Shown here in pieces: positions 2,266 to 32,049 of a stretch of DNA of 32,640 nt. Every line of letters starts with the position of its first letter. Position 1 is the first letter of the stretch. Source of the DNA: a virus; the IMG/VR virus record IMGVR_UViG_3300006802_000299, positions 1 through 32,640 of that record. One strand, written 5' to 3'. Both the position numbers and the translations under genes were made by a program. The notes beneath the pieces are model-generated. The model made no database searches. It was not told the origin of the DNA and saw only the letters and a list, made by a program, of their open reading frames with translations.

Positions 2266-3447
2266 TTAGACAATGATACCACTGATGGCACGTCCGTCAA
2301 GACAGACACGGCCTTCTTCAAGGTGACCCCAGAAGCCAGCCTTATCCACACGGGACAAGTTGAACTGGTCATCAGGAAGCACTTGGAAGGTAGCTCCAGT
2401 GTCCTCAGTCATGTCGTGACCGCCACGAGCGACTGGACGGATGAAAGCTCCACGGGTGTTGTCAACTGCGACACAGACCTCGTCTGTTGCGCTGCTGAAC
2501 GCGGAACCGCCAGTACCATCAAGCTTCGCCCAAGAGGTTGCGCCTGCGTAGGTGTCGAACAAGTCGTTGTACTTCTTGTTGATACCGAATTCAATCAACT
2601 TAACAATGTTGACTCCGTAGATGTTCTGCATTCCAGCGTTGCGGAAGATTTCCTCACGCATTGACTCTGGAAGAGGGACGCTTGAGTCAGCATAACCGGC
2701 AGTGTCGGTACCGCTAAGCACACCGGCCTTAGTGTTCAATGGGTTGAACGCGAACGCTCTGATCTGACCAACAATCTCTGGGGAGACGTAAAGGTCAGTT
2801 GGACCATTGGAGAACACCTCGGTTGGGGTGTTACCGGAGTAAGACTCGTTAAGACGGTCGTGACGAGTCATAAGATCGTTAAGATCGTTGATGACGAAAG
2901 AGTTTGCGGTGTTCGCACGAATAGCGTGACGAAGGGCGGAACCATTCTTAGGAGTGGTAGATGCCTCGCCAAGTGCCTTCATGATAACGGACCATGCATT
3001 CTTTTCCTGCTCGATCAAAACCTCGTTGATCATACGCTCGACTGCGCCAGAGATAACGTCAAGACGGCTCTTACGCGCATAACGCTTGTTGAAGGAAACT
3101 GCTGAATCAAGAGTGTAAGTCATAAACTTCATCTCTTGGTTACCAGTTACCTGTGAGGTAGGAAGACCGCCAGCCATGTGCTGTGACCAAACAGTGACGT
3201 AGCCGTCAAGCTCGCCGTAGTAAAGATCAAGCGGGTAGCTTGGTGAATCATCCTCGTCGTATGGAGCGTCTTGGTAAATCGCAGAAGCGGTACCCTTGGT
3301 CATCAAAACCTTCTGAATGACTGGGCCAAGAAACGCTGCCAACGCCTGCTGTGCGTCCATAGAAACCTGAGTGTTCTTGGAGCCGATAGCGTTAACCAGA
3401 GCGATCTGCTGTGGTGTTTCCTTTAATTTAAAAGTTGCTTTCTTCAT
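2266..3447 (-). CDS. Major capsid protein (HK97-fold type)
   Basis: A 393-residue protein in the expected place after protease/scaffold and decoration genes, with a strong AGGAG ribosome site and a dedicated terminator, as for an abundant virion protein. The segment around NKRYARKSRLDVIS (about residues 118-132) followed by a long amphipathic helix is typical of tailed-phage capsid proteins. A possible T4-type prohead cleavage site (L-K-E) lies at residues 8-10. The next 45 residues (TPQQIALVNAIG, then LGPVIQKVL) reappear in a separate small protein at 31512-31763. The C-terminus ends RAISGIIV. Family assignment rests on context and general resemblance. Confidence 0.82.
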   Translation of the reverse strand: MKKATFKLKETPQQIALVNAIGSKNTQVSMDAQQALAAFLGPVIQKVLMTKGTASAIYQDAPYDEDDSPSYPLDLYYGELDGYVTVWSQHMAGGLPTSQVTGNQEMKFMTYTLDSAVSFNKRYARKSRLDVISGAVERMINEVLIEQEKNAWSVIMKALGEASTTPKNGSALRHAIRANTANSFVINDLNDLMTRHDRLNESYSGNTPTEVFSNGPTDLYVSPEIVGQIRAFAFNPLNTKAGVLSGTDTAGYADSSVPLPESMREEIFRNAGMQNIYGVNIVKLIEFGINKKYNDLFDTYAGATSWAKLDGTGGSAFSSATDEVCVAVDNTRGAFIRPVARGGHDMTEDTGATFQVLPDDQFNLSRVDKAGFWGHLEEGRVCLDGRAISGIIV

Positions 3448-3481: not shown

Positions 3482-4063
3482 TTATCTGATGTCAAGGCTG
3501 ATAAGCACCCATCCGTTGCTGTCCTTGGAGCCAAGGGCGCGTCCAACAACAGTTGCGTCGTCATCAAGGTCGCCGTTGTGAGCGTTGGCCGCGATGGACT
3601 CGATAACACCGTCTGGGCCAGCGTAAAGTACGTCACCAGCGGTAACCGCACCAGTAATTCCTGAGTAAAGGAACCTACCACGGGTAACCAAAGGCATCGC
3701 CTGTCCAGAGATAACTGCTTCAATTTCCTGTTGCTTGCGAGGGTTGAACTTCAACTGCTCGCCGTTCTCGTCGACTTCCTTAAGATCGAAAAGGGTCATT
3801 CCTACGACCGCATCACCAGTTCCAGCAGCAGTAACCTTAGCGGTAACACCATATCTCTGAGAGACAGTGTTGCCATAGGTTGCGCCCGGGGAACCAAGCA
3901 TTTCGGTAGGGTCTTGGTCAGCAGTCCAGCCAGAGCCGACAAGCTTAACAAGAAGTCCCTTGTTCTGAGGAATAGATCCGCCACCATCTAAAGTGTAGAA
4001 TGGAATTACGTCTTTAGGATCAACGTCCTGTAATGGTCTAAGTGTTTGATTTTCTCCTGCCAT
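3482..4063 (-). CDS. Putative head decoration or capsid-stabilising protein
   Basis: A 193-residue protein between the protease/scaffold and capsid genes, the usual place of decoration proteins. It has a Gly-rich beta pattern (VTRGRFLYSGITGAVTAGD, LYAGPDGVIE, VVGRALG) like the SH3/beta-tulip decoration family, in which a parameter such as 'AGDVLYAGPDG' is common. The ribosome site AATAGGAGAAT is the same as that before the capsid gene, pointing to matched high expression. It could instead be a head-completion protein. Function is inferred from position and fold impression. Confidence 0.62.
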   Translation of the reverse strand: MAGENQTLRPLQDVDPKDVIPFYTLDGGGSIPQNKGLLVKLVGSGWTADQDPTEMLGSPGATYGNTVSQRYGVTAKVTAAGTGDAVVGMTLFDLKEVDENGEQLKFNPRKQQEIEAVISGQAMPLVTRGRFLYSGITGAVTAGDVLYAGPDGVIESIAANAHNGDLDDDATVVGRALGSKDSNGWVLISLDIR

Positions 4064-12022: not shown

Positions 12023-12023
12023 A

Positions 12024-14689: not shown

Positions 14690-15325
14690 TTAGCTACCTT
14701 GATATGTTCCTGTGACGAATGTGAAGTCGAATGAGTACTGATCTTCGCCAGAATGAGGATAATTTGCAGGGTCAATCGGAGGAGTGTAATCGCCAGATGT
14801 AACCGTGCCAGTTGTCAATAAAAAATCAAACGCAGCCTCATCCCTGTCATTTCTAATCAGCGCACCTGACCTTAAATCCGCTGCATAACCATCGATTTTC
14901 TCAATTAAAATTCCAGACCATCTACCATCAAAGTCAGCCCCCAGCACAGCAATATCAATGTTGCTCGCTGATTGCTGGCCTGTTGTAGTGACCCTAAAAA
15001 CAGCATCATCACTAGGATAGCCATCAACTAGCCCAGTAATATGAATCCCTCCTGTCATTATATTAAAAGGAATTCCTTCTTGATTACCACTAAATGTAGT
15101 ATCAAGATTTGCTTCGTCTCCTAGCCCGCGTTTAATTTCGCCAGAGCTAAAATTGATATACAGATTTCCGCTATCAACAACGGCAGGAAAGATCTGACCA
15201 GCCACAGTAACAGAAGCATTTACCCTTTCGTTTCCGAAGGTGTAAGGTTTATACTTGTCAACACCGATGTCTCGGCCTGACAAATTAACCGTAATCTGCT
15301 GTAGTTGGTCGAAGGGTGAACCCAT
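14690..15325 (-). CDS. Unknown structural protein after portal (211 aa)
   Basis: Starts as MGSPFDQLQQITVNLSGRDI and shows beta-strand patterning with a Gly/Thr-rich tail (TGTVTSGDYTPP, FTFVTGTYQGS). The start overlaps the portal stop codon (TAATG), so the two are translated together. A gene directly after portal is often a neck, head-completion or tail-completion protein. No family was recognised and the role is inferred from position only. Confidence 0.55.
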   Translation of the reverse strand: MGSPFDQLQQITVNLSGRDIGVDKYKPYTFGNERVNASVTVAGQIFPAVVDSGNLYINFSSGEIKRGLGDEANLDTTFSGNQEGIPFNIMTGGIHITGLVDGYPSDDAVFRVTTTGQQSASNIDIAVLGADFDGRWSGILIEKIDGYAADLRSGALIRNDRDEAAFDFLLTTGTVTSGDYTPPIDPANYPHSGEDQYSFDFTFVTGTYQGS

Positions 15326-17325
15326 TATTTATCCTGCTTGATTTCAGCAGCAAGCAAAATACTAGCAAGGTAAAAGTCAAGATTATGTTGTGCGCCGATA
15401 GCGTAGATTCTTTCTAATCTGTCTTGATTCTTATCTTTAGGATCTTTGATGTAATCATCCACAACCTTGTCCCAGTTCTCCATGTCTTCATTTGCAATAA
15501 TTGTTTCTGCAATCTTGCCGATAAGGAGTTCGTCTGCTGCCTGTAATTTTCTAACCTTGTTTTGTTTTCTGTAAGATTTGGCGACAATCTTCTCCAATTC
15601 TGAAGCTTTAACAAACGCCTCCCTTACTCCGATAGCACTAAAGATAGTCTTATCTGCGGTAGCCTCTTGAATGCCAGTTCCAATAGGGCCAACATTATCA
15701 CCAGACTGAGGAATATTCTCTGTTCCATCAGGACGACCCGGCTCACCATCTGGACCACCTCCGCTGCCACCGTTAATAGGCTCATAAAGACCCATTCCTT
15801 TACGTTCTTTAAATTTTTTCTGAGATTCAAGCGAGGAATCATCATCTGGTAACTCGCCAGTTTCAATGGCCTTCAGAAGCTCTTCTTGAGTAAGCATTCC
15901 GATCTCGGCCATGCGAGTGTAAATCTTAGCTTTAACACCAGCGTCATCCATATCAATATCCTCAAAGCAAGGAGTAGGGTAACCCCTGAAACCAAGTTCT
16001 TTAGAAATCTTTTTGATTTCATTGAATAAAAAGTCATTAATAAATGATTCTCTTGCGTGTTGCAAACGAGCAACAAACACATCGATCTTTTGCTTCTGGT
16101 TAGCAAACTTCTCACCGCCAGCGAACACGTTGTTCAAGCCAGTATTGATGTCCCTGTCAAGAATCTCGTATTTCTTAGGATCAAGAAGGGTTGCAATTTC
16201 TGGGATAATGAATTTAGCTTCTGTGGTATAGTCAGCAACCAACACACGACCGACAGACTGATTCTCAAACAAAGTCTGAAGAGCTGCCAAGTTCTTCTGG
16301 GAGACGCCGCCTTTATCTGGCTCGGTACCAGTTGTAACAAGCAAAATAGCCTGCTGCATGGTTCTCGCGACTGCCATATCGATCTTTTTCATTTCGTCCT
16401 TTGCGTTGATGTCAGCAAGAACGGGGTAACCCATAGGAACAGCAAATGGCTCGTAGTCCTGCTTCTTGTAGAATACAGCCACAGAGTTCTCGGAATCCAA
16501 AGGAAACCGAATAGCCCCTTTGTTTTGTGGTTGTTTAATTGCTTCTCTAACCGAGGAAGGAAGAGACTTTAAAAGCTCCTTGTCTTCGTCAGTTTGAGGG
16601 TTCTTTAGTCTAGAAACTTCATAACCATTCAAAACCTTGTAATACGAACCGTCCAAAAAGTTCGCGTTACCTTCCATACGAACGTCCGCAGGGTTTAAGA
16701 TGATGAATTTGATGGGAATTTCAAAAGTTTCCGCTGCGATAGAAAGCTCGGTCTTTGTAGATCCAAAAACGGTTGTGATCTTTCTCACGTCGTCCTTCTG
16801 AAGGACAGTGTTAAAGCGATACATAAACACATTACCGCTCCTGAAATACTCGCGGAAGAACTGATCCTGCAAATTCCAAATATTAATCTTCTTGAAGTAA
16901 GACTTGAAGAAATCGCGTGATTTTTGTGTTCCGTCTTTGAAGTAAATTTTGCCAGTGGAGAACTCCGTCATCAAGTCAATAATGTTACGGAAGATGGCGA
17001 AGTTCCAATAGGTTTTCTGGCATAGTTCGACCGATTCTTTTACGGAGATAGCGTTTGTCCCAGATGCCAAGCCGTGACTGACATTGTTAAATGGAGTCAT
17101 TCCATCTTCAATGTTCTTGTACTTGTTGGTTCTGTCAATTACACCAGCGACATTGCTTCTTGTGGAAGTTTGTGCTGCTGTAGCCTCATAGGACATAAGA
17201 GGAGTCGTTGACGAAGCAGCGAGAGCCTCCTTATCTATTGCTGGTTTCTTAGCAGCCGCCTTGCTAGGAGCCTTTTTCTTCGCAGGAGCCTTCTTTTTAG
17301 GTGTGTATGATGTTTTAGTAGCCAT
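15325..17325 (-). CDS. Portal protein
   Basis: 666 residues, within the size range of portals. The first ~30 residues are Lys/Ala/Pro-rich (KKKAPAKKKAPSKAAAKK), like a histone H1 tail and probably a DNA- or scaffold-contact segment. The body has typical portal phrasing: NFAIFRNIIDLMTEFSTG, FFREYFRSGNVFMYRF, then NPADVRMEGN and the helical stem region RTMQQAILLVTTGTEPDKGG. The C-terminal half holds a Gly/Pro-rich loop (NGGSGGGPDGEPGRPDG). It lies between the fibre and the next structural gene, two bases after the fibre stop. The portal forms the dodecameric DNA gate at one capsid vertex and docks the terminase, whose gene lies upstream. Confidence 0.8.
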   Translation of the reverse strand: MATKTSYTPKKKAPAKKKAPSKAAAKKPAIDKEALAASSTTPLMSYEATAAQTSTRSNVAGVIDRTNKYKNIEDGMTPFNNVSHGLASGTNAISVKESVELCQKTYWNFAIFRNIIDLMTEFSTGKIYFKDGTQKSRDFFKSYFKKINIWNLQDQFFREYFRSGNVFMYRFNTVLQKDDVRKITTVFGSTKTELSIAAETFEIPIKFIILNPADVRMEGNANFLDGSYYKVLNGYEVSRLKNPQTDEDKELLKSLPSSVREAIKQPQNKGAIRFPLDSENSVAVFYKKQDYEPFAVPMGYPVLADINAKDEMKKIDMAVARTMQQAILLVTTGTEPDKGGVSQKNLAALQTLFENQSVGRVLVADYTTEAKFIIPEIATLLDPKKYEILDRDINTGLNNVFAGGEKFANQKQKIDVFVARLQHARESFINDFLFNEIKKISKELGFRGYPTPCFEDIDMDDAGVKAKIYTRMAEIGMLTQEELLKAIETGELPDDDSSLESQKKFKERKGMGLYEPINGGSGGGPDGEPGRPDGTENIPQSGDNVGPIGTGIQEATADKTIFSAIGVREAFVKASELEKIVAKSYRKQNKVRKLQAADELLIGKIAETIIANEDMENWDKVVDDYIKDPKDKNQDRLERIYAIGAQHNLDFYLASILLAAEIKQDK

Positions 17326-19712: not shown

Positions 19713-21695
19713 TTATGATTTCGCAAAGAAAGGAACAAACGTCTCATGTTGCTCCTCTGCAATCTCATTAAACTCATAATAGGACTTTACAGCCCATGTT
19801 CCAATAAGAAGTGCCGTGTAATTGTCTCGACGGGCGCGTTCTGCACCTTGTTCACGGCTAATATGAATAGGAAAGTCGAATGTTTGGGTACCACGAGGAT
19901 TAGATCGGACCTCAATCATGGCGCATTCTTTTTTAGTTAGCTTGATTTTAAATCCAATTTCATCAATAAGTTGAGTCTTGGTAATTTTTTCAGCCTTGAC
20001 GGTATCTTCCTCCAATGCTTTGACAAGATCAAGATCAACATCCTGACGCATCATTGCTGAGTATATTGTCTCAGAACCGCCGGGGTGAGAAGCGAACCAT
20101 ATTTTCTTATAGTCGATCTGTTCCTGTAAATGTTCGTTAGCCTGCCTGATCCAGTTATTGTTAGAGAAAACGATCCTGTTGGCGATCCTATGAATTTTTC
20201 TGTTGTATTCTCGCTTTGCTTTCTTACGCTCTTCGTTGTCATCCTTGGAGGAATCGTAATCGATGAACTTGATGTTGATCTTTTTCTCCCTAGCATAGTG
20301 AGATTCGTTGTAGGAATCCAAGAATTGGTAGCCCGCGTTATCAATTGCGATATACACAATGTTGAAGTTGGTATAAAGATAATGAAAATATTTAATGTGT
20401 TCCTTTAAATCTTTACCATGCTGACCGTATGCATGAACCAAAGTACAAGCTTTCTTTTCAGGATGGATTTCTAGAACAGCCATACCAAAGTCGTCAGAGG
20501 TAGGAGAGTTAGAAAACGAAGGGTCAATTGCTAGAATATATTCAGCCTCGGGATCACCTTTAACCATAAGGGTCGGAGATTCTCCATCAGGGATAGTCTG
20601 AGCCTGCATTTTCTTAGCGGAGAAGAAACCCTCTGAACCATCAGAGAACTGCGCGCAATACTCACGTTGGAAGATGGCGTTATTTGTACCTCCAGATTCC
20701 GCCTCTTTAATGACGGATTTGTTGATCATGTGCTTAGGAATAGCATTCCACGCCAACTGCGAAATGAAATACTTTGGAGGCGTTTCATCTTCATCATATT
20801 CAGCACCAGACTCCTCCTTCATGCTCTCATAGTGACGAGGATTATAAATCTTCTTTACGTAGTCGCAATAAGTAGTATAAAGGTTCTCAAAAGTATAACT
20901 TGCTGATGATAGACCTATTAATTTAGTCTTATCTTCAAAAATGGTTCTTTCCGCCTCGGTCATCGCGCCGTCTTTAATGAGTTCGTCCTCAATTTCGATG
21001 ATTTCCTGACGTTCCGAAATGTCTTGAGGAGCAGTCAAGAACGGACGCAAAACAGTATCAATGATTTCGCGAGACATAAGAAGGTACTCATCAATAACCA
21101 GAATGTTTGCACGGAAACCACGAATCTTTTCACCAGACAAAGGGATAGCCGCGATACCAGAACCATTTGGCAATTCAAACTGGTGAATATCATTACGCTT
21201 GGTAGGCTTGTCAACAAATGCCTGTCTTGCAAGAACGGCCTTCTTGCTTTTTAGAATCTCCTCAACTTTGTTGAAGATAAAACGAGAGGTTCTGAATGTA
21301 GGACCAGCAATAATAATACGAGAATTAGGTTCAAGCATAGCTTGAAGCATACAATATACAGAAGCAATAAAGGTTTTACCACAACCACGACCCCACACAC
21401 AAAGAGAATAGTTTCTATTCATTAACCCTCTTAATGTGATTTCTTGAAATGGAGCAAGCTTCAGGCCAGTCAGCATTTCAGCAGTAAAGCCCAAATTATT
21501 CTTCATGAAATCAACCATCGTAATGACAGCATCATCTTCATCAAGCTCTCCTTTAAGCTCTTCCAAGAACTTTTGATTAACGTTCTCGGTTTCTTTTTCG
21601 TAATCTTCGTGGCAATACCACATGTTAAAAATATCGTTTAATTCTGCGCTCTGGCATAGCGGGTCTTCTCCAAGCTTGGTAGACGACGTTTGCAA
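19713..21695 (-). CDS. Terminase large subunit
   Basis: The DNA-packaging motor and headful nuclease, 660 residues from a TTG start; an ATG at residue 25 is the alternative, and neither has a good ribosome site. The ATPase domain has Walker A WGRGCGKT (about 101-108), Walker B ILVIDE (198-203) and the coupling motif GLSSAS (261-266). The RNase-H-like nuclease half has AIDPSFS (Asp about 391), a second acidic strand YIAIDNAGY (about 448-456) and a later conserved DxxRR-type region before the C-terminus. It lies after the zinc-finger nuclease gene and before the fibre/portal block. The layout suits a T4-like motor of the size seen in myovirus-like phages. Confidence 0.93.
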   Translation of the reverse strand: MQTSSTKLGEDPLCQSAELNDIFNMWYCHEDYEKETENVNQKFLEELKGELDEDDAVITMVDFMKNNLGFTAEMLTGLKLAPFQEITLRGLMNRNYSLCVWGRGCGKTFIASVYCMLQAMLEPNSRIIIAGPTFRTSRFIFNKVEEILKSKKAVLARQAFVDKPTKRNDIHQFELPNGSGIAAIPLSGEKIRGFRANILVIDEYLLMSREIIDTVLRPFLTAPQDISERQEIIEIEDELIKDGAMTEAERTIFEDKTKLIGLSSASYTFENLYTTYCDYVKKIYNPRHYESMKEESGAEYDEDETPPKYFISQLAWNAIPKHMINKSVIKEAESGGTNNAIFQREYCAQFSDGSEGFFSAKKMQAQTIPDGESPTLMVKGDPEAEYILAIDPSFSNSPTSDDFGMAVLEIHPEKKACTLVHAYGQHGKDLKEHIKYFHYLYTNFNIVYIAIDNAGYQFLDSYNESHYAREKKINIKFIDYDSSKDDNEERKKAKREYNRKIHRIANRIVFSNNNWIRQANEHLQEQIDYKKIWFASHPGGSETIYSAMMRQDVDLDLVKALEEDTVKAEKITKTQLIDEIGFKIKLTKKECAMIEVRSNPRGTQTFDFPIHISREQGAERARRDNYTALLIGTWAVKSYYEFNEIAEEQHETFVPFFAKS

Positions 21696-23828: not shown

Positions 23829-24515
23829 TTAATAAATATCCACTTCCCCGTCCTTAATCAGCTTCTTGGCTTTGGCGACTATTGACTTCGTAATGTTCTT
23901 TATTTGCTTATAACCGGGGCTACGATTTTTTTCGTTTGTTTTGTACCCTAATTGATGAGCGACCTCTATCTCAGACATACCCTTAATAAAAAGACCCTCA
24001 TAAACAGTCCATTCAACAGGTTTGAGGGTTTCTTTTAATTTTTTATTCAATTCTAAAACTGAATCAATAGTCTCCATTGATTCTGAAAATTGATTACCTA
24101 CCTCATATGAGTGATGCTCCATAGAGACTGGCAATTTTACGTCATAAGCAGGCTTCTTGCGCTGCTGCCAAATTTTAAATAAGGGGCAGGAGTCACATTG
24201 CTTTTCATACAGTTCGCACCCATTGTCGGGTAAGGAGGCTGAACATTTAAGACAAGGACGGGCGTAATTAGAGAAGTTGTTTCTGACGATGTTGGAAATC
24301 TGACGAGTAATGATTTTATTAATCCAAGGTTCAATAGGTTTGGCGGGATCATACTGCTCCCATTTCCTATGAATGTGGATTCTAATCATCTGAGAGACAT
24401 CATCGAAATCCATCCAAGTTATGGACGTAAGAGTCCACTTCGGTCGCCTTTTAGCGATCTCATTGTCAATGATGTCTATGTATTCTTCGAATTTTGGCTT
24501 ATCAGGCTGACTCAT
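23829..24515 (-). CDS. Phage RNA polymerase sigma factor with Cys-rich insert
   Basis: 228 residues. Residues 34-80 (WMDFDDVSQMIRIHIHRKW, then PWINKIITRQISNIVRNNF) match sigma region 2, which binds the -10 element and core polymerase. Residues about 163-220 (EWTVYEGLFIKGMSEIEVAH, then KQIKNITKSIVAKAKKLIK) match a region-4-like helix-turn-helix. Between them lie five cysteines (88, 91, 100, 107, 110; CLKC...CDSC) that look like a zinc-binding insert. It probably directs host RNA polymerase to late phage promoters in the manner of T4 gp55. The TTACACGTAA sites ahead of late genes are natural candidate targets. It overlaps its neighbour's stop by 4 nt (ATGA). Confidence 0.75.
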   Translation of the reverse strand: MSQPDKPKFEEYIDIIDNEIAKRRPKWTLTSITWMDFDDVSQMIRIHIHRKWEQYDPAKPIEPWINKIITRQISNIVRNNFSNYARPCLKCSASLPDNGCELYEKQCDSCPLFKIWQQRKKPAYDVKLPVSMEHHSYEVGNQFSESMETIDSVLELNKKLKETLKPVEWTVYEGLFIKGMSEIEVAHQLGYKTNEKNRSPGYKQIKNITKSIVAKAKKLIKDGEVDIY

Positions 24516-24886
24516 TTATTATTCTTTTGGAATGCTTGAGCGGCCTGACGATATTCGTTGCATGCTTGTGGGTTCATGCTGTCAAGACTGCCCAAAGTCT
24601 CTCCTCCGTCCCTCGTCCCTTCGGATTCGAACTCCAAACCGTCAATAGAGTCAGAGTCAAAGTAATCAACACTTCTACCTTCAACCCTCTCATCCTCCTC
24701 ATTGACGTAGCCGCCACCCCTTCTCTGCCTCATAGAAAATGGGGTGAATGTTTCTTTTGTTGGTTGTGGCTGTTGCGTAGAGGTAGCCTGACTGAAGCTA
24801 GCTGCTGTATTATGACCACAGTAACTACAAATCTTACCTCCAGCGGCAATACCCTGTTTTCCACATTCTGGACAATATTTACTCAT
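24512..24886 (-). CDS. Zinc-ribbon protein (124 aa)
   Basis: Residues 5-8 (CPEC) and 20-23 (CSYC) give a CXXC-X11-CXXC zinc ribbon. The rest is low-complexity: a Gln/Thr/Ser linker, then an acidic stretch (NEEDERVEGRSVDYFDSD) and a short helical end. It is the first gene of the leftward transcription unit and its stop overlaps the sigma-factor start (ATGA), so it may work with the sigma factor on polymerase. That is only inference from the operon; zinc ribbons of this type are common and nonspecific. A possible sigma-70-like promoter (TTAATA, 16 bases, TATAAT) lies before it. Confidence 0.68.
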   Translation of the reverse strand: MSKYCPECGKQGIAAGGKICSYCGHNTAASFSQATSTQQPQPTKETFTPFSMRQRRGGGYVNEEDERVEGRSVDYFDSDSIDGLEFESEGTRDGGETLGSLDSMNPQACNEYRQAAQAFQKNNK

Positions 24887-24929: not shown

Positions 24930-25103
24930 ATGGCACAAGATGATAATATCGAGGCATTTTTAAAAGAAGTAATGGATAAGACTTATGCTCTGTGCAAACA
25001 CGATGACAGCGCGGTCGCCTTCATTTCTCAACAATTAAATGGACGAGCTTATCGTCTATTAAAGAAAATTGAACGATCCGAAGAACAACATAGCGATAAT
25101 TAG
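24930..25103 (+). CDS. Small helical protein of unknown function (57 aa)
   Basis: Begins MAQDDNIEAFLKEVMDKTYA and ends RLLKKIERSEEQHSDN. It looks wholly helical and acidic-basic mixed, with one Cys-His pair (LCKHDD) and no known motif. It is the first rightward gene, and its 3' end overlaps the predicted start of the GT9 gene by about 35 bases in another frame. No function can be assigned. Confidence 0.55.
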   Translation: MAQDDNIEAFLKEVMDKTYALCKHDDSAVAFISQQLNGRAYRLLKKIERSEEQHSDN

Positions 25104-25967
25104 ACCCGGTGCCTTGGGTGATGTCTTCTGCCTTCTGACCTTACAGCAAGCCATACGTAAAAAATACGGGGCTTTGATCTGTACACCGCTTCCTCCACCC
25201 TACGTGTCCTAGAAGGCTTTATCAAGGACCACAACCTCGTGGATAACCTGTTTGATTCTGACGTTCTCTCTCCAAACTACGAACTGCGCCCCTCTGAGCA
25301 ATGGTATAAAAATAAACCAATTAAATTAATAGCATATCCATTTAATGAAGGTTATCCATTTAATAGTGGGATGAAAAAGCATCTTAGACAATACATGGAA
25401 AAAGAGATAAATATTAACAGTGAATATGACTTATTACTACAGAGTAAACCGATATGCTTGGAGACATCAGAAGATTACATCACAATCCAAACAAAAGCTG
25501 GATGGAGTAGATACAAAGAATGGTCGTCAGATCAATGGGAAGAATTAATAAAAATAATTAAACAAGAGACGACTCTAAAAGTGCATCAAATCGGAGCGGC
25601 CGCTGAGCCAGTATTGGAAGGTGTGGATTTTAAAGTAATGAGTGGATTTGATGATTGTATTCATCATCAGTGTTATGCTAAGGCTCATGTTGGTATTGAT
25701 TCTATATTTAACCATACGACCGATGTGATCTGGAGTCACAAGGCATGTAAGACGCCCGCAGTCATCATGTTTGGGTCAACTTGTCCCACCGGATTCGGCT
25801 ATGAAGGAAATGAGAATATTTTTCTTGACATTTCGTGCCAACCATGCTATAAAGAGAATGTCGAGATTGTAAATGCAGTAAATCGTACGCCATGCTGGAA
25901 AGATCATGAGTGTATGAAACAGATCGCGCCCGAAATGGTGTGGGAGAGATTAAAAAAGATATTATAA
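25069..25967 (+). CDS. GT9 (ADP-heptose:LPS heptosyltransferase-family) glycosyltransferase, frameshifted
   Basis: The gene reads in two frames. A TTG at 25069 opens LNDPKNNIAIIRPGALGDV, the classic N-terminal nucleotide-fold motif of GT9. The frame then ends at 25212. The continuation GFDLYTASSTLRVLEG, and the rest to 25967, lies in the -1 frame, open from 25161. The C-terminal half fits the family: TIQTKAGWSRYKEW, KTPAVIMFGSTCPTG and the closing Cys-rich segment with CWKDHECM. A missing base in the A6 (25159-25164) or G4 (25168-25171) run would explain the break; programmed -1 slippage, mutation or assembly error all fit. It would transfer a heptose-like sugar. A GTG at 25239 could start a shortened product. 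Confidence 0.72.
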
Positions 25968-26192
25968 ATGAGTGATCTTTGGAAGACAGGTTTTGACAGT
26001 AAGGTATTTCGCGATTTGCATAAATACCTGCAAGCACAGCAACAGACCGACGCTAAAGAACCAAACGAGTACACTGACCCGTTTAATCTTTTTCAGAGAG
26101 AATACGACGCACAGTTCGGTATCTCGACTTCCAAACCAGAGCCTACCCCAATGGAACTTACACGGTCATACAAAGAAGCCGTAAAAGATTAA
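25968..26192 (+). CDS. Small protein with C-terminal tag (74 aa)
   Basis: The start codon follows the GT9 stop directly (TAAATG). The body is polar, with a helix (FDSKVFRDLHKYLQAQQQ) and a Pro-rich linker. The C-terminus ends MELTRSYKEAVKD. This L-T-R-x-Y-K-E pattern recurs at the end of many small proteins nearby and may be a shared sorting or docking tag. No domain was recognised. Confidence 0.6.
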   Translation: MSDLWKTGFDSKVFRDLHKYLQAQQQTDAKEPNEYTDPFNLFQREYDAQFGISTSKPEPTPMELTRSYKEAVKD

Positions 26193-26248
26193 TTTAATTT
26201 TATAATATTTTATATTAAAAAAAAGAAGGGGAAGGAAAGAAAGAGAAT

Positions 26249-26542
26249 ATGGGAGAGTCGTCGCTAAGATATTTCTCGGACAAGGACTTTAATGTGGAAG
26301 ACCTAAACAATCAATTAACCGAAGTTTCTAAGGAAACTGGAGGAAATTCTCCAAAAGTCCTTAAAATGTATCGTTGGCAGTTTGAGCAAATGAAGTTTTG
26401 GTATGCCGGGCATAAAACCTTGGTTCCAAATGCCGCCGAACCAAAAGACGTAATGATTTTTGGCATGAGGCTAGTTATCATAGAAGATTGGGAAGAGGCA
26501 ATAAAACTCACAAAAAAATATAAAAAAAATATAATAAATTAA
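26249..26542 (+). CDS. Small protein with C-terminal tag (97 aa)
   Basis: Starts MGESSLRYFSDKDFNVEDLN after a purine-rich ribosome site (GAAGGGGAAGGAAAGAAAG). The middle has KMYRWQFEQMKFWYAGH and VMIFGMRLVIIEDW, suggesting a small alpha/beta fold with an exposed aromatic patch. It ends IKLTKKYKKNIIN, a copy of the tag seen in neighbours. Function unknown. The ORF sits between two AT-only gaps. Confidence 0.6.
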   Translation: MGESSLRYFSDKDFNVEDLNNQLTEVSKETGGNSPKVLKMYRWQFEQMKFWYAGHKTLVPNAAEPKDVMIFGMRLVIIEDWEEAIKLTKKYKKNIIN

Positions 26543-26626
26543 AAAAATAAAAAAAAATTAAATGTACAACAAAAAAAGACAAACTTTTAAGCTTGTCAAA
26601 AGTGAAAAGAGTGTTAAGCTGGTAAA
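26543..26626. other. AT-rich gap
   Basis: The gap holds A-rich sequence and a weak possible hairpin, GACAA...TTGTC (26578-26597), with no convincing T-tract. Nothing firm was found. Confidence 0.3.
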
Positions 26627-26797
26627 GTGACAAAAATTTTAACCATATACAGCCCAATGATAGTTTGTGTACTTTATACACTTACTGGAATTGGGTTTTT
26701 GTTTAAGAAGAACTGGCCGTGGGCCATCGTTTGGCTCAGTTATGCAATGGCAAACGTTGGATTGATATGGGCTGCATATCAAGGGGTTCAGAAATGA
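26627..26797 (+). CDS. Two-helix small membrane protein (56 aa)
   Basis: A GTG at 26627 or an ATG at 26657 may start it; neither has a clear ribosome site. The protein has two hydrophobic stretches, about residues 4-26 (ILTIYSPMIVCVLYTL then GIGFLF) and 33-52 (AIVWLSYAMANVGLIWAAY), joined by a KKNWPW turn. That is a membrane hairpin. Its stop overlaps the next start (ATGA). Holins and membrane anti-superinfection peptides look like this, but so do many unrelated phage peptides, so the job is not assigned. Confidence 0.5.
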   Translation: MTKILTIYSPMIVCVLYTLTGIGFLFKKNWPWAIVWLSYAMANVGLIWAAYQGVQK

Positions 26798-27012
26798 GTA
26801 ATTTTGATCCAAATGAATATTCTAAGGTCATAGGAAAGACTGTCCAATTTGAAGAAACCGAAGATCCTCTCGTCCAATTCTTGATAAAGGCAGGCAAATA
26901 TGAAGAAGCTTTAAAACTCAAAACAAAATTATTAATTGATGAATACAAAAAAGTTACGAGTACCAGCGGTGACAATGGAAGACCTGATGAAGACGACGAC
27001 GTTTTTACCTAA
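26794..27012 (+). CDS. Small acidic protein (72 aa)
   Basis: Starts MSNFDPNEYSKVIGKTVQF and is linked to the preceding membrane peptide by an ATGA overlap. A longer reading from 26719 overlaps that gene and is less likely. It has helical segments (VQFLIKAGKYEEALKLKTK, LLIDEYKKV) and an acidic tail (DEDDDVF). A YKK element resembling the recurring tag is internal here and not at the end. Function unknown. Confidence 0.55.
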   Translation: MSNFDPNEYSKVIGKTVQFEETEDPLVQFLIKAGKYEEALKLKTKLLIDEYKKVTSTSGDNGRPDEDDDVFT

Positions 27013-27029
27013 ACAGTCTAGCGGATTAA

Positions 27030-27323
27030 ATGAAAGAGAAGATAAAAGACAAAAGAACGAAGGCTCAGAAGCTTGCAGACAAAAAGTTGAGCAAGAAGTT
27101 CATTCGCGTCCGCAATCTTCTTGAGTCTCGTGGAAAAAAGCTGGCTGTTGATTCAGATAATAAAGAAAAAGAACGCAAAAGGTCATTTGATCGAATTTTA
27201 AAGGACATTGAGGAAATAAAAACAAAAGAAGAGCGCGAAGAATATAAAAAGAATAAAACTCTTTTGAAACAATGGAAACATACAGCAAAATGGATGAAAG
27301 GAGAAAATGACAGTCAATCATAA
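27030..27323 (+). CDS. Small, strongly basic helical protein (97 aa)
   Basis: Begins MKEKIKDKRTKAQKLADKKL and is packed with Lys, Arg and Glu. It probably forms a charged coiled coil or binds nucleic acid. The C-terminal part has TLLKQWKHTAKWMKG, a possible diverged form of the nearby tag with Trp in place of Tyr. It overlaps the next gene by 17 bases. No family was recognised. Confidence 0.5.
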   Translation: MKEKIKDKRTKAQKLADKKLSKKFIRVRNLLESRGKKLAVDSDNKEKERKRSFDRILKDIEEIKTKEEREEYKKNKTLLKQWKHTAKWMKGENDSQS

Positions 27324-27681
27324 TCACACATGCACCATGTCGGGCGCGGCGATACCCGTTGTTCAAAAAGGAGCGTTTTATTACAATCAAGCAAATCAAG
27401 TTGGTGCTAACGTTATGGTTACTGGCATTTACAGTCCATCGAATTTTATTATTGCAATACAGAATGTCACCTTTAAAGAATTTAAAAGAGCGCTCAAACA
27501 TCTCTGCGAAGAACACCGTCTTACCATCATTGACAAGCAAAAATACATTGATAAAGTTCTTTATGGAAAGGAAAAGGAAATCAATATTTATAATATTGAG
27601 TATCACATTACTGATATCAAAGATGTTCGAAAAAAGGCCAAATCAAAAATTGTCGAAAGTTACAAGCTATCAATCAAATGA
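27307..27681 (+). CDS. Unknown protein with C-terminal tag (124 aa)
   Basis: Begins MTVNHNHTCTMSGAAIPVVQ and has a His/Cys-rich start that could bind metal. Middle stretches (VTGIYSPSNFIIAIQNVTF, YDKVLYG-like turn, INIYNIEYHITD) suggest a small alpha/beta domain. It ends SKIVESYKLSIK, a copy of the recurring tag pattern. It overlaps its neighbours at both ends (17 bases before, ATGA after), so it belongs to one operon. Function unknown. Confidence 0.55.
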   Translation: MTVNHNHTCTMSGAAIPVVQKGAFYYNQANQVGANVMVTGIYSPSNFIIAIQNVTFKEFKRALKHLCEEHRLTIIDKQKYIDKVLYGKEKEINIYNIEYHITDIKDVRKKAKSKIVESYKLSIK

Positions 27682-27728
27682 GTCTCACGCAGGAAATGGT
27701 AAAAAAGTTTAAAGATTCAACCAAGTAA
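27678..27728 (+). CDS. Possible 16-residue peptide resembling the tag alone
   Basis: The reading frame MSLTQEMVKKFKDSTK starts inside the previous stop (ATGA) and its stop overlaps the GT2 start (TAATG). It is very short, but both junctions are the tight translational couplings seen elsewhere here. Its sequence is nearly just the recurring tag with Phe for Tyr. It may be a coupling leader, a relic of a tagged gene, or nothing. Confidence 0.3.
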   Translation: MSLTQEMVKKFKDSTK

Positions 27729-28864
27729 TGAAAAAAATTTGCTTAACAATGATAGTCAAGAACGAAGCTCACTGCATTGAGCGTTGTCTTGATAGCGTCA
27801 AGGATTTAGTTGATTATTATTGGATTGACGATACGGGGTCAACTGATAACACAATAGAAGTTATAAATAAGTGGTTCGAGAAGAACAAAATTGAAGACTT
27901 TGTTGTTCATGCAACTGGTTGGGCTGGTTTTGCAGAAAGTCGCACGGCTTGTCTTGTGTGTGCCAAGTCAGCATGGAAAGAGGCGGATTACCTTTTGATG
28001 ATTGACGCTGACGAAATCATTGTATGGAAAGATAAGAAAAGTTTACAAAACGTCCAGCAGTTAAAAGACAGCTTGACTTGCGACCTCTACGATATTCGTA
28101 CGGTGATGGCGGGATCAGTTTATGTTCGTCCACAACTCACGAAAGCCAACAAGGGTTTTGTCTATGAAGGTGTAGTTCATGAATTTTTGAGCGACAAGCA
28201 CGACAAAATTGAAACAAGAGGAATCATCGAGGAATTCATCAATAAACCAATTCAAGATTCCGCCCGCAACAAAGACCCTGAGAAATTCAAGAAAGACGCA
28301 GAAGTTTTAGCCAAGGCACTAGAAAATGAGAATGATCGTTTTCTTAGAACACGCTATCGTTTTTATCTGGCTCAATGCTTGAGGGACAGTGGCGACATGG
28401 CGGGCGCATTATACAATTACCAAAAGAGAGCGGAGATGGGAGGTTGGGAAGAGGAAGTTTATTGGAGTCTTTATCAAGCGGCACGAATCAAGGAGCATTT
28501 GGGTTGCGAACACGAGGATGTTATTCAGACATACTTGAAGGCTTACGAAAGCGCACCCCATCGATCAGAAGCTTTACACGGCGCAGCTAAGTGCGCAAGA
28601 GAGAATAAAATGTATCAGCAAGCATATATTTATTCCAAATTCGCCTTGCCCATCCAAATGCCCCAGAACGCCCTCTTCACAGACTCCCATGTATATTCAT
28701 ACGCACTACTAGACGAGTATTCTATTGCAGCTTTCTATACTGGACGCCCAAAGGAAAGCTTAGAGGCTTGTAAGATTTTATTGAAAGAAAAGAAGTTCCC
28801 GCCCGAGCAGGAAGAAAGAATCAAAAGAAACATGCAATTTGCAGTGGAGGCAATGAATGAATGA
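27728..28864 (+). CDS. GT2-family glycosyltransferase with helical repeat tail
   Basis: 378 residues. The GT-A fold is clear: N-terminal TMIVKNEA (7-14), DDTGSTDNT (34-42) and the metal/nucleotide-sugar DxD as DADE (93-96). The C-terminal ~150 residues are helix pairs with TPR-like spacing (RTRYRFYLAQCLRDSGDMAG, then YWSLYQAARIKEH), as in several GT2 proteins with SPW/TPR tails. It probably adds a sugar to phage or host surface, DNA or protein; the acceptor is unknown. It lies downstream of a GT9 gene, suggesting a short glycosylation set. The stop overlaps the next start. Confidence 0.85.
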   Translation: MKKICLTMIVKNEAHCIERCLDSVKDLVDYYWIDDTGSTDNTIEVINKWFEKNKIEDFVVHATGWAGFAESRTACLVCAKSAWKEADYLLMIDADEIIVWKDKKSLQNVQQLKDSLTCDLYDIRTVMAGSVYVRPQLTKANKGFVYEGVVHEFLSDKHDKIETRGIIEEFINKPIQDSARNKDPEKFKKDAEVLAKALENENDRFLRTRYRFYLAQCLRDSGDMAGALYNYQKRAEMGGWEEEVYWSLYQAARIKEHLGCEHEDVIQTYLKAYESAPHRSEALHGAAKCARENKMYQQAYIYSKFALPIQMPQNALFTDSHVYSYALLDEYSIAAFYTGRPKESLEACKILLKEKKFPPEQEERIKRNMQFAVEAMNE

Positions 28865-29036
28865 TGATTTGTCTGCAAAATTTAAAGTCAAATTAGATGA
28901 TACTTCCGATACGTATACAGAAGTAAGATTTAAATTCTGCGACGAAACAGGACAAATGACATGGGAAATTTTAAACAAAGATGAAGAACCCAAAGCCCTC
29001 GTCAAAAGATATAAACAATATATCAGAAGCAGTTGA
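28857..29036 (+). CDS. Small protein with C-terminal tag (59 aa)
   Basis: The ATG at 28857 overlaps the end of GT2. The protein begins MNDDLSAKFKVKLDDTSDT and has a beta-hairpin look (YTEVRFKFCDET, MTWEILNKDE). It ends KALVKRYKQYIRSS, one of the cleanest copies of the recurring L-V-K-x-Y-K tag. A small beta domain plus tag is all that can be said. Confidence 0.55.
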   Translation: MNDDLSAKFKVKLDDTSDTYTEVRFKFCDETGQMTWEILNKDEEPKALVKRYKQYIRSS

Positions 29037-29040
29037 CAAC

Positions 29041-29172
29041 ATGGCTGACGAATTACAAGTAGCTATAGAAGCGAAAGCATGGAGAACTGTTTTTGCTGGT
29101 TTGTTGAATAGAAATTCGAAAGAGCTAGTTAGATTATACAGGGAGTCTCTCAATGACAGAAAAGGAATATAA
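29041..29172 (+). CDS. Small tagged protein (43 aa)
   Basis: ATG 29041 follows the previous stop by four bases. An in-frame ATG at 28981 would overlap that gene by 56 bases and is less likely. The whole protein is a short helix plus ELVRLYRESLNDRKGI; residues LLNRNSKELVRLYRESL align with LLLNPKELTRKYKESL at the end of the leftward gene at 31319. It overlaps the next gene by 20 bases. Function unknown. Confidence 0.5.
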   Translation: MADELQVAIEAKAWRTVFAGLLNRNSKELVRLYRESLNDRKGI

Positions 29173-29668
29173 AGAATTAAGAAAAAGATGCGATGGCAAC
29201 CCTATTCGCTTGCATAAAGAATTGAATAATATGTCAATGGGGGACCGTATTGATTATAAGCGTCTTGACGCACCAAGAATCAAAAAAGAGCAAGAGGCTG
29301 AATTAGCTGCGTTTAAATCGTGGGCTAAAACAGAACCAACGGCCTCAGAAGAAATCAACGACCCAAGAGATGATATACGTGGCTGTACGGGTTGTTCACC
29401 GCCTCACTGTCCAAGTTGTGATTATTTGTATTCAATTGAAAATACATTTACTTTAGATGATCTTGCAGAGATGCAAAAAAAACAAATGGCCATCAACAGG
29501 AAAATAAAATCAAGAAATGATAAGATTGATATAATTTCTCTTGGGGACACTGTTAAAGATGCGGTAAATAAAGTCATCAATCAAAAGATAGCATCTCAAA
29601 AAATTAAAGTCCATTCAGAACGGAAAAAAATAATCAAACAATACAAAAAATGTATAAAAAAAGTGTAA
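29153..29668 (+). CDS. Cys-cluster protein with C-terminal tag (171 aa)
   Basis: A Lys-rich helical protein beginning MTEKEYKELRKRCDGNPIRL. The middle has a CX2C-X4-CX2C metal site (CTGCSPPHCPSC, about residues 78-89). It ends SERKKIIKQYKKCIKKV, matching the recurring tag. It might bind nucleic acid through the zinc site. A GTGTAAT, like part of the leftward late site, covers its stop at 29663-29669, possibly by chance. Confidence 0.6.
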   Translation: MTEKEYKELRKRCDGNPIRLHKELNNMSMGDRIDYKRLDAPRIKKEQEAELAAFKSWAKTEPTASEEINDPRDDIRGCTGCSPPHCPSCDYLYSIENTFTLDDLAEMQKKQMAINRKIKSRNDKIDIISLGDTVKDAVNKVINQKIASQKIKVHSERKKIIKQYKKCIKKV

Positions 29669-29684
29669 TTCTTGGTGTACAGGA

Positions 29685-30062
29685 ATGCACAAAGGCAACT
29701 TTATTCAAAAAGAGTTAAAATACGCCATCCTTACTGACGTAGCAAGTAAATATTGGTGTTACGCTATTTCTTACGTTGACCCTGATAATGCTGATGACAA
29801 TATTGCTGATATTATTGAGCAATACAGCATGATTGATTATCGAAATACCTCATTTTTTCGCAAAATAATCCAAAAGAAGGATCATGAATTCCTTTTTAAA
29901 GAATTAAAAATACACAACGGGATATTTGCTGAACCAAAACGCTGTTACGCCGTCCCTCTTTCTATTAATGAATACGAAGCTTGTAAAATATTTTTGGGTG
30001 TTGCTCTTAAAAGCGATATAATAGAGTACGTTCAAAAATACAAGACATGCTTGAAGAAATAG
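29685..30062 (+). CDS. Unknown protein with C-terminal tag (125 aa)
   Basis: Begins MHKGNFIQKELKYAILTDVA, with a mixed alpha/beta pattern and many aromatics (KYWCYAISYVDPD). It ends DIIEYVQKYKTCLKK, an extended version of the recurring tag. It overlaps the following gene by 16 bases. No motif allows a function. Confidence 0.55.
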   Translation: MHKGNFIQKELKYAILTDVASKYWCYAISYVDPDNADDNIADIIEQYSMIDYRNTSFFRKIIQKKDHEFLFKELKIHNGIFAEPKRCYAVPLSINEYEACKIFLGVALKSDIIEYVQKYKTCLKK

Positions 30063-30541
30063 AATTTAATAAACTGCCTACAGATGAAAAGATCAACATC
30101 TGTAACAAAACTCAGCGCGTTCTCAAAACACACTTCCCAGATAGCGAATTTACCTTGCGCTCCAACAATCTGGAAAAGGGGCTGGAGTTCTATCGTAAAC
30201 TAATTGACGATTTCAAAGGGTGCTGTATTGTCGATAGGAACGCAGTTGTCTTCTACAAGATCAGCGACATCACAGACTTCTACGATAAAAATGGAGAATT
30301 CAGGAAACTAAGAGAAGCTTCTCACAATCCTTATGGTAATTGTATGTTTGTTGATTTTCTTGTTGCTGATTTTAATGAGGATAATGTTGAGGATTTAAAA
30401 GAATTTTTCTTTCGTCCTTGGCGCGTTGAATACTATATGATGCTAAGACGCGGCGAAGTCATATTAAAGACCCGCCGCGACCTAGAAGTTTTAGCTAAAA
30501 GAGTTTCTACTTACCAGCTTATAAGTTCTCTAGCCTCTTAA
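30047..30541 (+). CDS. Unknown phage protein (164 aa)
   Basis: The N-terminal half has helix followed by strand elements, then a well-defined alpha/beta stretch (CIVDRNAVVFYKISDITDFY, NCMFVDFLVADFNEDN). Its C-terminus (LEVLAKRVSTYQLISSLAS) lacks the tag of its neighbours. It converges with the PhoH gene; the two overlap by 23 bases. It may be a small enzyme or a phage regulator, but no family was recognised. Confidence 0.55.
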   Translation: MLEEIEFNKLPTDEKINICNKTQRVLKTHFPDSEFTLRSNNLEKGLEFYRKLIDDFKGCCIVDRNAVVFYKISDITDFYDKNGEFRKLREASHNPYGNCMFVDFLVADFNEDNVEDLKEFFFRPWRVEYYMMLRRGEVILKTRRDLEVLAKRVSTYQLISSLAS

Positions 30542-31292
30542 CGATATATTTGACCAATTCGGACCTCATAATATCTTCCTCGTCAAATTGGAACGTGTAG
30601 ATGCCGTGATCCAATGCTTCCCTATCGTGTTCGAATAGATTGTATAATTTTTGGAATCCACCAGCCTTGCCATTCAAGTCGGTCTGTTTAGGATCAGCGC
30701 AAATAAAACAACGGGTGAAATGACCCAATCTAGTAATAGTTGTGACTAATTCTTTTTCTGTGCTATTTTGTGCTTCGTCTAGGATGATAGCTTTTGCATT
30801 CCAGTTAAGCCCTCTGATATAGTTGATAGGCATACAATGGATTCTAGAGTCATCTATGAGTTTTTTCTGGTCGCCTGATGATAATAGCTCATTCATTTTA
30901 TCCCAGAATGGAGCGTTATAGACGGCCATCTTTTCTTCTGCGGAACCGGGCAAGAAACCAATTCCAGCATCAGACGATTCAACTGCGGATCTTAAATAAC
31001 AAATGTCGGAAATTTTTCTTTGATTAAGTAGATGAAGGCTTACGTAGGATGCAAGTAAAGTCTTTGCTGTACCGGCAGGCCCGTTTACAAACATGACGCG
31101 CATGTTTTTTTGCATTGCAAGATCAATGAAACGCTCTTGATTTAGTGTCCAATCAAGGTCGCGGATGTTGAGATCGCATTTGATCTTGTCGCGCTGCCAA
31201 ACGTATGGAGACTGGTCCTTGTTTTCATTATTAACCACTTCAGGCTTTTTGGCCTTAGTGCCGCCACGAGGAGATGATTTCTTCGCAGGCAT
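30519..31292 (-). CDS. phoH: PhoH-like ATPase
   Basis: 257 residues, a common size for phage PhoH. It has Walker A GPAGTAKT (71-78), LRSAVESSDAGIGFLPGS-type middle motif, and Walker B ILDEAQN (about 170-176), followed by ITRLG and DPKQTD, all family hallmarks. A basic Lys-rich N-terminus (MPAKKSSPRGG) is extra. PhoH-like proteins are common in marine phages and act as nucleotide-binding, possibly RNA-linked ATPases; their role in phage is not settled. The gene is last in a leftward set whose start has a TTACACGTCA site, so it might have its own promoter. Confidence 0.88.
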   Translation of the reverse strand: MPAKKSSPRGGTKAKKPEVVNNENKDQSPYVWQRDKIKCDLNIRDLDWTLNQERFIDLAMQKNMRVMFVNGPAGTAKTLLASYVSLHLLNQRKISDICYLRSAVESSDAGIGFLPGSAEEKMAVYNAPFWDKMNELLSSGDQKKLIDDSRIHCMPINYIRGLNWNAKAIILDEAQNSTEKELVTTITRLGHFTRCFICADPKQTDLNGKAGGFQKLYNLFEHDREALDHGIYTFQFDEEDIMRSELVKYIVKRLENL

Positions 31293-31300
31293 GTAATAAG

Positions 31301-31312
31301 TATTACACGTCA
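31301..31312 (-). promoter_or_regulatory. TTACACGTCA site before phoH (site g)
   Basis: The minus strand reads TGACGTGTAATA and ends 8 nt before the ATG at 31292. It matches the late-site family at nine of ten core positions and lies outside the virion cluster. Confidence 0.45.
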
Positions 31313-31318
31313 GACGGG

Positions 31319-31531
31319 TTATTGGGAAGGCTTTTCGAGCGACTCTTTATATTTGCGCGTTAGTTCTTTAGGGTTTAGCAGCAATTGAACTAAAAATTTA
31401 GCCATTTCAACTTGCTTCTGACTAGTTAAACTAGAAAAGATATAAGGGGCTGTCAAAATACCAGCATCATCCAGTATCTTGGTCGCTTTAGCAGATAAAG
31501 GGTACCCTATATTAGCTTTTGCATTTGCCAT
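31319..31531 (-). CDS. Small helical protein with C-terminal tag (70 aa)
   Basis: The ATG at 31531 is preferred over a TTG at 31570; it overlaps the previous gene by 20 bases. The protein begins MANAKANIGYPLSAKATKIL and has a helix pair (IFSSLTSQKQVEMAKFLVQL). It ends NPKELTRKYKESLEKPSQ, the fullest copy of the recurring tag, shared with the rightward gene at 29041. It lies with its tagged neighbour and PhoH in one leftward operon. Function unknown. Confidence 0.55.
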   Translation of the reverse strand: MANAKANIGYPLSAKATKILDDAGILTAPYIFSSLTSQKQVEMAKFLVQLLLNPKELTRKYKESLEKPSQ

Positions 31532-31763
31532 ACATTTTTTTGTATTTTTTAGCCAGATCGCGCCGATCAAGCATCAAAAGGTCGTCAATCTTTCTATCGA
31601 TTTCAGGAGAAAACATAATGTCAGCGGCCGTTTGATTGCCTAAAACTTTTGATATAACAGGACCAAGACAATTAGCAAAAGATTTTTGGGCACTTTGGGC
31701 TGAAACGCCTACCTTGCCAATAGCCTTAACTAGCTCTATTTGTTCTTTGGTACTAAGATTCAT
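31512..31763 (-). CDS. Small protein resembling the capsid N-terminal arm, with C-terminal tag (83 aa)
   Basis: Residues 4-42 (STKEQIELVKAIGKVGVSAQ and on to LGPVISKVLG) line up with residues 10-50 of the major capsid protein (ETPQQIALVNAIG...LGPVIQKVL), with matches clustered in I-x-LV-x-AIG, AQ, A-x-LGPVI-x-KVL. The remainder is new: a helix and the tag RRDLAKKYKKMYG. It lies in the leftward PhoH group, away from the capsid gene. It may be a partial duplicate that competes with, or steers, the capsid arm. The homology is judged by eye. Confidence 0.65.
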   Translation of the reverse strand: MNLSTKEQIELVKAIGKVGVSAQSAQKSFANCLGPVISKVLGNQTAADIMFSPEIDRKIDDLLMLDRRDLAKKYKKMYGKCKS

Positions 31764-32049
31764 CTTTTTTTCGACGATAGTAAGTCCGCTTGTATTCTTT
31801 GGTTTTGTCCAAATTCTGCTGCTGCCACTCGACTACCTGCTTGGTAATTCGCGCTTTATTCCTTTGGTAATGTTCCGCCGCTGCTTTCTTTTCGCATATT
31901 TTACACGCGTAACGATAGCCGTCTTTATTTTTGGCATTCTTAGAAAACTTTTCAAATGGTAATAGTTGAAGACATTTAGTACACTGTTTTACACTAACGT
32001 CTTCATTCAAACTAGAGAATTCAATAGAATTAGATGCTTCTTCGTTCAT
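31753..32049 (-). CDS. Zinc-binding phage protein like the endonuclease VII N-terminal region (98 aa)
   Basis: Residues 23-26 (CTKC) and 46-49 (CKIC) give a CXXC...CXXC site in the pattern CTKC-LQLLPFEKFSKN, DGYRYACKIC, then a long basic helix AEHYQRNKARITK. This pattern is typical of a zinc-ribbon seen at the N-terminus of phage recombination endonuclease VII-type or HNH-linked proteins, but no nuclease half follows. It overlaps the next gene by 11 bases. It probably binds nucleic acid. The upstream AT-rich region has TATAATAA but no certain promoter. Confidence 0.7.
   Translation of the reverse strand: MNEEASNSIEFSSLNEDVSVKQCTKCLQLLPFEKFSKNAKNKDGYRYACKICEKKAAAEHYQRNKARITKQVVEWQQQNLDKTKEYKRTYYRRKKDES

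Follow-up and report, generated by a model that had tools for sequence, protein, structure and literature searches.

The window analysed here is a 32,640-base virus record of IMG/VR (IMGVR_UViG_3300006802_000299), probably a genome fragment, in which eleven small genes were found to encode proteins ending in one common short sequence element, in the following termed the C-terminal tag. The tag is a protein-level feature with a sharp upstream edge, at least three of the tagged proteins carry bodies that resemble pieces of virus-head proteins, and the arrays formed by the tagged genes are inserted into an operon which is conserved in related phages. As judged from the sequences, this hints at a hitherto unrecognised toolkit acting on virus-head assembly. 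The reading that we favour, which is considered possible rather than probable, is that the tag serves as a docking helix fused to differing head-protein-like baits that would act on head assembly, perhaps against co-infecting relatives.

An initial annotation had located ten such endings on both strands, and each of them was found in its place and on its strand and fits the pattern described. The tag lies near the C-terminus as proposed, its motif being separated from the last residue by 0-16 residues, and its consensus, [EK]-[LIM]-[TVIA]-[KR]-x-[YF]-[KR]-x-[SACN]-[LIV], fits an amphipathic helix. The tagged genes lie mainly on the plus strand, where they flank two glycosyltransferase genes, two further ones being located on the minus strand past the PhoH gene. 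The first plus-strand array encodes tagged proteins of 74 amino acids (25968..26192, tag MELTRSYKEAVK at 26151-26186), 97 amino acids (26249..26542, tag IKLTKKYKKNII at 26501-26536) and 124 amino acids (27307..27681, tag SKIVESYKLSIK at 27643-27678), and a 72-amino-acid protein (26795..27012) with an eleventh, looser copy of the tag beyond the ten described initially (KLLIDEYKKVTS at 26927-26962), which reads LLIDEYKKVTS and is located 16 residues before the C-terminus. The array closes with a 16-codon open reading frame (ORF; 27678..27728, MSLTQEMVKKFKDSTK) that is nearly the tag alone and that overlaps the stop of the preceding gene and abuts the start of the following one. The second array, likewise on the plus strand, encodes proteins of 59 (28857..29036, tag KALVKRYKQYIR at 28992-29027), 63 (28981..29172, tag KELVRLYRESLN at 29119-29154), 171 (29153..29668, tag KKIIKQYKKCIK at 29624-29659) and 125 amino acids (29685..30062, tag IEYVQKYKTCLK at 30021-30056). 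The first two of these genes share 56 bases, read in different frames, and the tag of the first covers the start of the second. The minus-strand genes are 31319..31570 (likely ATG at 31531, 70 amino acids, tag KELTRKYKESLE at 31334-31369) and 31512..31763 (83 amino acids, tag RDLAKKYKKMYG at 31527-31562).

The tagged genes are rich in lysine and AT, which would suggest chance or a lysine-rich bias as source of the tag; this explanation is, however, disfavoured by leave-one-out, shuffled, internal and related-genome controls and is considered extremely improbable. Composition-matched shuffles of the same lysine-rich proteins do not yield the tag, a profile search of the window gave ten C-terminal matches versus a single internal one, and the virion genes of the window are devoid of it, as had been claimed. 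Using a leave-one-out position-specific scoring matrix, with p given per position versus 518,000 background residues, nine left-out tags obtained p values of 0 to 2.4e-4 and those of 26795 (p = 0.002) and 31512 values of 0.002-0.003, all of which are conditional on the choice of tagged proteins, ten being those of the initial annotation and the eleventh that of the present work. In ten of the eleven proteins the tag is the top-scoring site. A comparison independent of this choice revealed that 14.3% of C-terminal pairs score at least 28 in the tagged region, the share in seven related genomes (contigs of 116-203 kb) being no higher than 0.19%. C-terminal similarity is thus about 75-fold or more above that of the relatives, and no pairs of such score came from internal parts of the proteins of the tagged region. 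A cruder motif-discovery score obtained early on amounted to 112.5, internal windows giving a mean of 92.7 and a maximum of 113.2.

Amino-acid identity is 32% among the tags versus 9% among the 12 residues upstream, the latter value being like that of unrelated sequence. Codons match at 107 of 210 tag positions with the same residue; codon usage alone would give 99.7. The tags have a mean DNA identity of 0.50. Codon agreement being near expectation, the tag does not result from copying at the DNA level but was kept, or has converged, at the level of the protein. The earlier proposal of a sorting or docking signal therefore gains from the protein-level conservation, the C-terminal place, the sharp edge and the fit to an amphipathic pattern, whereas its variant as a degradation signal fared poorly.

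The bodies had been described as unrelated, which had to be revised for three to four that resemble head proteins, a finding that unexpectedly strengthens the link to the virion. Profiles built from 65-104 clade homologues were used to score the small proteins, with 6000 reversed ORFs as null, the head families having been picked after the first capsid match. The 31512..31763 protein resembles the N-terminus of the major capsid protein (MCP; 2266..3447, minus strand, HK97 fold) with a blastp E of 2.6e-5, homologues of the MCP being matched too, and scores 32.1 bits (E = 5e-11) versus the MCP profile, above all reversed ORFs; the N-arm homology as found with a hidden Markov model covers its residues 5-52 (31608-31751, minus strand). 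With 83 amino acids, covering just MCP residues 10-64 of 393, this protein is not a complete HK97 fold. Within 28981..29172, the segment 29020-29103 resembles the spine helix of the MCP (profile match, 9.5 bits, E = 3.6e-4), and within 27307..27681 the segment 27334-27420 (MSGAAIPVVQKGAFYYN...) resembles the capsid decoration protein (3482..4063, minus strand; 15.8 bits, E = 5e-6), none of the 6000 reversed ORFs scoring as high in either case. Suggestive is furthermore the stretch FQREYDAQF (26091-26117) within 25968..26192, which resembles FQREYCAQF of the large terminase (19713..21695, minus strand), four of the 6000 reversed ORFs scoring as high as this protein versus the terminase profile.

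Screening 74 conserved families of the seven related genomes and the window, without restriction to head genes, yielded four matches that outscored every one of 3000 reversed ORFs, namely the head matches of 31512, 27307 and 28981 and a lysine-rich one of 29153 to a kinase-like family, which was set aside. In a ranking that included 895 small proteins from the seven genomes, the two top places for the MCP model and the top place for the decoration model went to tagged proteins, and 25968-26192 led the list for the terminase (E = 0.78). A profile-profile control exceeded 20% probability in 4 of 14 window proteins versus 1 of 127 others. In a single profile comparison, a 71-amino-acid protein of a relative (G001, 37286-37501, minus strand) reached 39.7% probability versus the capsid N-arm region. 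The identities of the capsid and decoration proteins were confirmed as far as structure models allow: the AlphaFold model of 2266-3447 (mean pLDDT, the predicted local distance difference test, of 71) matches capsid and encapsulin structures with Foldseek E values down to 3e-8, and the resembled MCP stretches coincide with its N-terminal helices (residues 12-21 and 26-51) and its long helix 129-161. For the model of 3482-4063 (pLDDT 85.5), decoration and head-fibre proteins are among the top structural matches with modest E values of at least 2e-3, and a homologue matches head-decoration and head-scaffolding families weakly.

Ranked by similarity, the phage's own capsid takes place 66 for 31512 and place 46 for 28981, out of 76 in each case, and its own decoration protein place 36 of 93 for 27307, the exception being the terminase motif, for which the own terminase ranks second of 101. 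The own homologues are hence not the closest, which speaks against recent copying from the phage's own genes; the matched pieces could be aimed at related phages, have been taken from them or reflect old homology. Several further candidates were rejected. The portal-like stretch of 29153 was equalled by 19 of 6000 reversed ORFs and was outside the top five for portal, the portal-like stretches in 30047 and 29153 having faded with deeper profiles or gone unranked; an MCP-like reading of 26249 failed calibration (136 of 6000 reversed ORFs as high); 31319 as a copy of the g1750 C-terminus was unsupported on profile scoring; and the short ORFs that bear head-like pieces in the relatives proved to be truncated ends of full genes.

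The genomic setting was derived from the syntenic relatives L064 and L092, in which a GT9-like gene, a family-2 glycosyltransferase (GT2) gene and a homologue of 30047 are contiguous and essentially gapless, with no tagged genes between them. In the window, stretches of about 1.8 kb and 1.2 kb, made up mostly of tagged genes, occupy exactly these two junctions, between the GT9-like gene (25239..25967, plus strand), which abuts the GT2 gene directly in the relatives, and the GT2 gene (27728..28864, plus strand), which has tagged arrays on both sides, and downstream of the latter. The tagged arrays are thus inserted into a conserved operon. Stop-start overlaps occur in several of the tagged genes, the translation of which is therefore probably coupled. 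The GT9-like gene seems to be split by a frameshift, since 25069-25212 and 25239-25967 correspond to a single unbroken gene in L064 and L092, which reflects either a sequencing error or a real break.

The late genes of the window are found on the minus strand and include, next to those named above, a portal-like protein (15325-17325, minus strand, weak match). Two adjoining large proteins (10712-12058 and 12024-14633, minus strand) are paralogues with 30% identity over 460 amino acids, and a small cysteine-rich protein (31753-32049, minus strand; C-x-x-C...C-x-x-C, C-terminus NLDKTKEYKRTYYRRKKDES), with weak family matches only, is perhaps HNH-like. The phage is uncultured and probably marine, the latter being deduced solely from contigs of relatives; those recovered via the PhoH protein and the sigma factor lie on contigs of up to 164 kb, and no cultured relative was found among the 50,697 phage records of INPHARED, neither by DNA nor with the portal-like protein. 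Relatives of the tagged proteins 31319, 29153 and 26249 were not found in IMG/VR, and the joined tagged proteins gave a single chance match in INPHARED (E = 5). Scans of 13 and of 30 further virus records with the tag profile, several of the records being above 130 kb, gave no match, which does not prove uniqueness, and the C-termini encoded in some 3 Mb of additional loci gave 28 scattered profile matches, about one per 107 kb, and no tagged genome, so that within the records searched a single phage with the tag is known. As a copy of a conserved segment in another phage protein the tag showed no excess over the reversed profile. Somewhat tag-like C-termini were found in a neck-region family (SEMVKNFRRNIQ) and in the sigma factor. 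The former (G001 113863-114537 and homologues) ends in a tag-like helix, for example SEMVKNFRRNIQ or SNIIEKFKNSFK, and could point to a partner of the tag. Beside the sigma factor, a zinc-ribbon protein is encoded (24512-24886, minus strand), whose counterparts in the relatives L072-L096 end in a conserved FLxEF[KR]xEAG, which fits the loose pattern of the tag.

According to the favoured explanation, the small genes would encode two-part proteins made of a variable body and the common short C-terminal amphipathic helix, whereby the helix would dock with its one hydrophobic face (L, V/T, Y, S, I/L) on one common partner. In at least three proteins the body would be a piece of a head protein, namely the MCP N-arm, the MCP spine helix and the decoration protein, possibly also the terminase. 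Pieces of this kind would bind the partners with which the corresponding proteins naturally assemble, so that the set would most likely block head assembly or control its timing. Since the similarity of the pieces to proteins of other phages in the clade equals or exceeds that to the phage's own, interference with related co-infecting phages would be the likeliest use. Doubtful, though conceivable, is that the phage carries protein-level weapons of modular design, directed at related phages and built of pieces of their head proteins (capsid N-arm, capsid helix, decoration protein, terminase motif), each joined to the common C-terminal helix, which would recruit the same effector or block an assembly site, with the arrays inserted into an existing operon. 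Several points weigh against the docking-and-bait explanation. Seven of the eleven tagged proteins are without similarity to head proteins, the match of 28981 covers a short stretch and is weak (E = 0.023) in the scoring with the 895 proteins, and just nine residues make up the terminase motif, with the E value given above; the head-like pieces could moreover reflect old paralogy instead of bait. Neither a partner of the tag nor a tagged relative was found. The phage is known only from this 32.6 kb fragment, in which neither a self-immunity factor nor a sign of lysogeny was seen, whereas the known assembly blocker Tab is made by a prophage.

Rather unlikely, yet consistent with 31512 bearing the MCP N-arm, the region contacting the scaffold in many phages, is a function of the tag, alone or together with the head-like segments, as a packaging signal, already suggested in the initial annotation, that carries the small proteins into the prohead as internal, injected proteins. 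A capsid targeting sequence is indeed common to the internal proteins of T4, but that signal is N-terminal and cleaved, whereas the tag is C-terminal and without a conserved cleavage motif. Decoration protein and terminase are not proteins of the inner core, so resemblance to them would be unexpected, and the tagged genes are mostly opposite to the late genes. Common descent, in which diverged duplicates retained only the C-terminal helix, perhaps as a structural element, would explain why the tags of 25968 or 28981 are 61-69% identical to that of 31319 over 13 amino acids; it is nonetheless judged unlikely in view of the drop to 9% identity immediately upstream of the tag, of lengths ranging from 16 to 171 amino acids and of different bodies matching different head proteins.

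Host immune sensors of capsid, portal or terminase such as CapRel and Avs raise the quite unlikely alternative that the pieces are decoys which occupy the sensor without triggering it. The pieces derive from proteins that such sensors recognise, Avs recognising terminase and portal. Sensing of capsid protein is documented (PMC9712102, PMC11312562). The decoy idea leaves the shared tag unexplained, and known sensors read folded proteins, not short stretches. A degradation tag, by which the C-terminus would send the proteins and their binding partners to a host protease, would suit the C-terminal position and, as bait plus degron, be a simple means of head-protein removal. It is very unlikely, as the last residues are unconserved (KD, IN, IK, SS, GI, KV, KK, SQ, KS), up to 16 residues follow the core and the ends do not resemble that of ssrA.

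Many small phage genes lack a known function, and here a shared C-terminal element groups about eleven of them, some of the bodies indicating the head as a concrete target. If true, the docking-and-bait explanation would describe a new route of phage-phage competition or of assembly control and provide ready-made short peptides interfering with capsid assembly. It moreover suggests a general screen for common C-terminal motifs fused to fragments of virion proteins.

Compared with known systems, the tag recalls the internal head proteins of T4, several small unrelated proteins with a common capsid targeting sequence, in that a short signal is common to small unrelated proteins and linked to the head. 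The T4 signal, however, is cleaved by the prohead protease, and a cleavage-like [YF][KR]E[AS] is present in only 3 of the 11 tags, with no conserved prohead protease site. Encapsulin cargo-loading peptides are likewise short, C-terminal and common to unrelated proteins, and are bound by an HK97-fold shell; the phage MCP shares the fold only, and the loading consensus, compared by reading only, differs from that of the tag, K/E-L-V/T-K/R-x-Y-K-x-S-I/L. As regards ssrA-like degrons, the terminal residues of the tagged proteins vary and are mostly polar or charged. The tag families considered (T4 targeting sequence, ssrA, encapsulin loading peptides) do not fit, and a brief search of the open-access literature also found nothing resembling the tag. 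With respect to function, the capsid-remodelling proteins of satellites (SaPI, PLE), as described in PMC5052747 and PMC10945586, are alike in being small and in redirecting or blocking head assembly of the helper, but are satellite-encoded, not located among a phage's own head genes, and not a tagged family. Tab, a prophage protein blocking tail assembly of invading phages, is a single protein that targets the tape measure of the tail, the JBD26 copy being encoded on the minus strand, and the description of Tab used here (PMC10884400) mentions neither a multi-gene set nor a common C-terminal tag. By that description it is a small phage protein stopping the virion assembly of another phage, and by analogy it would be the nearest functional parallel to a tagged set of head-protein-like baits.

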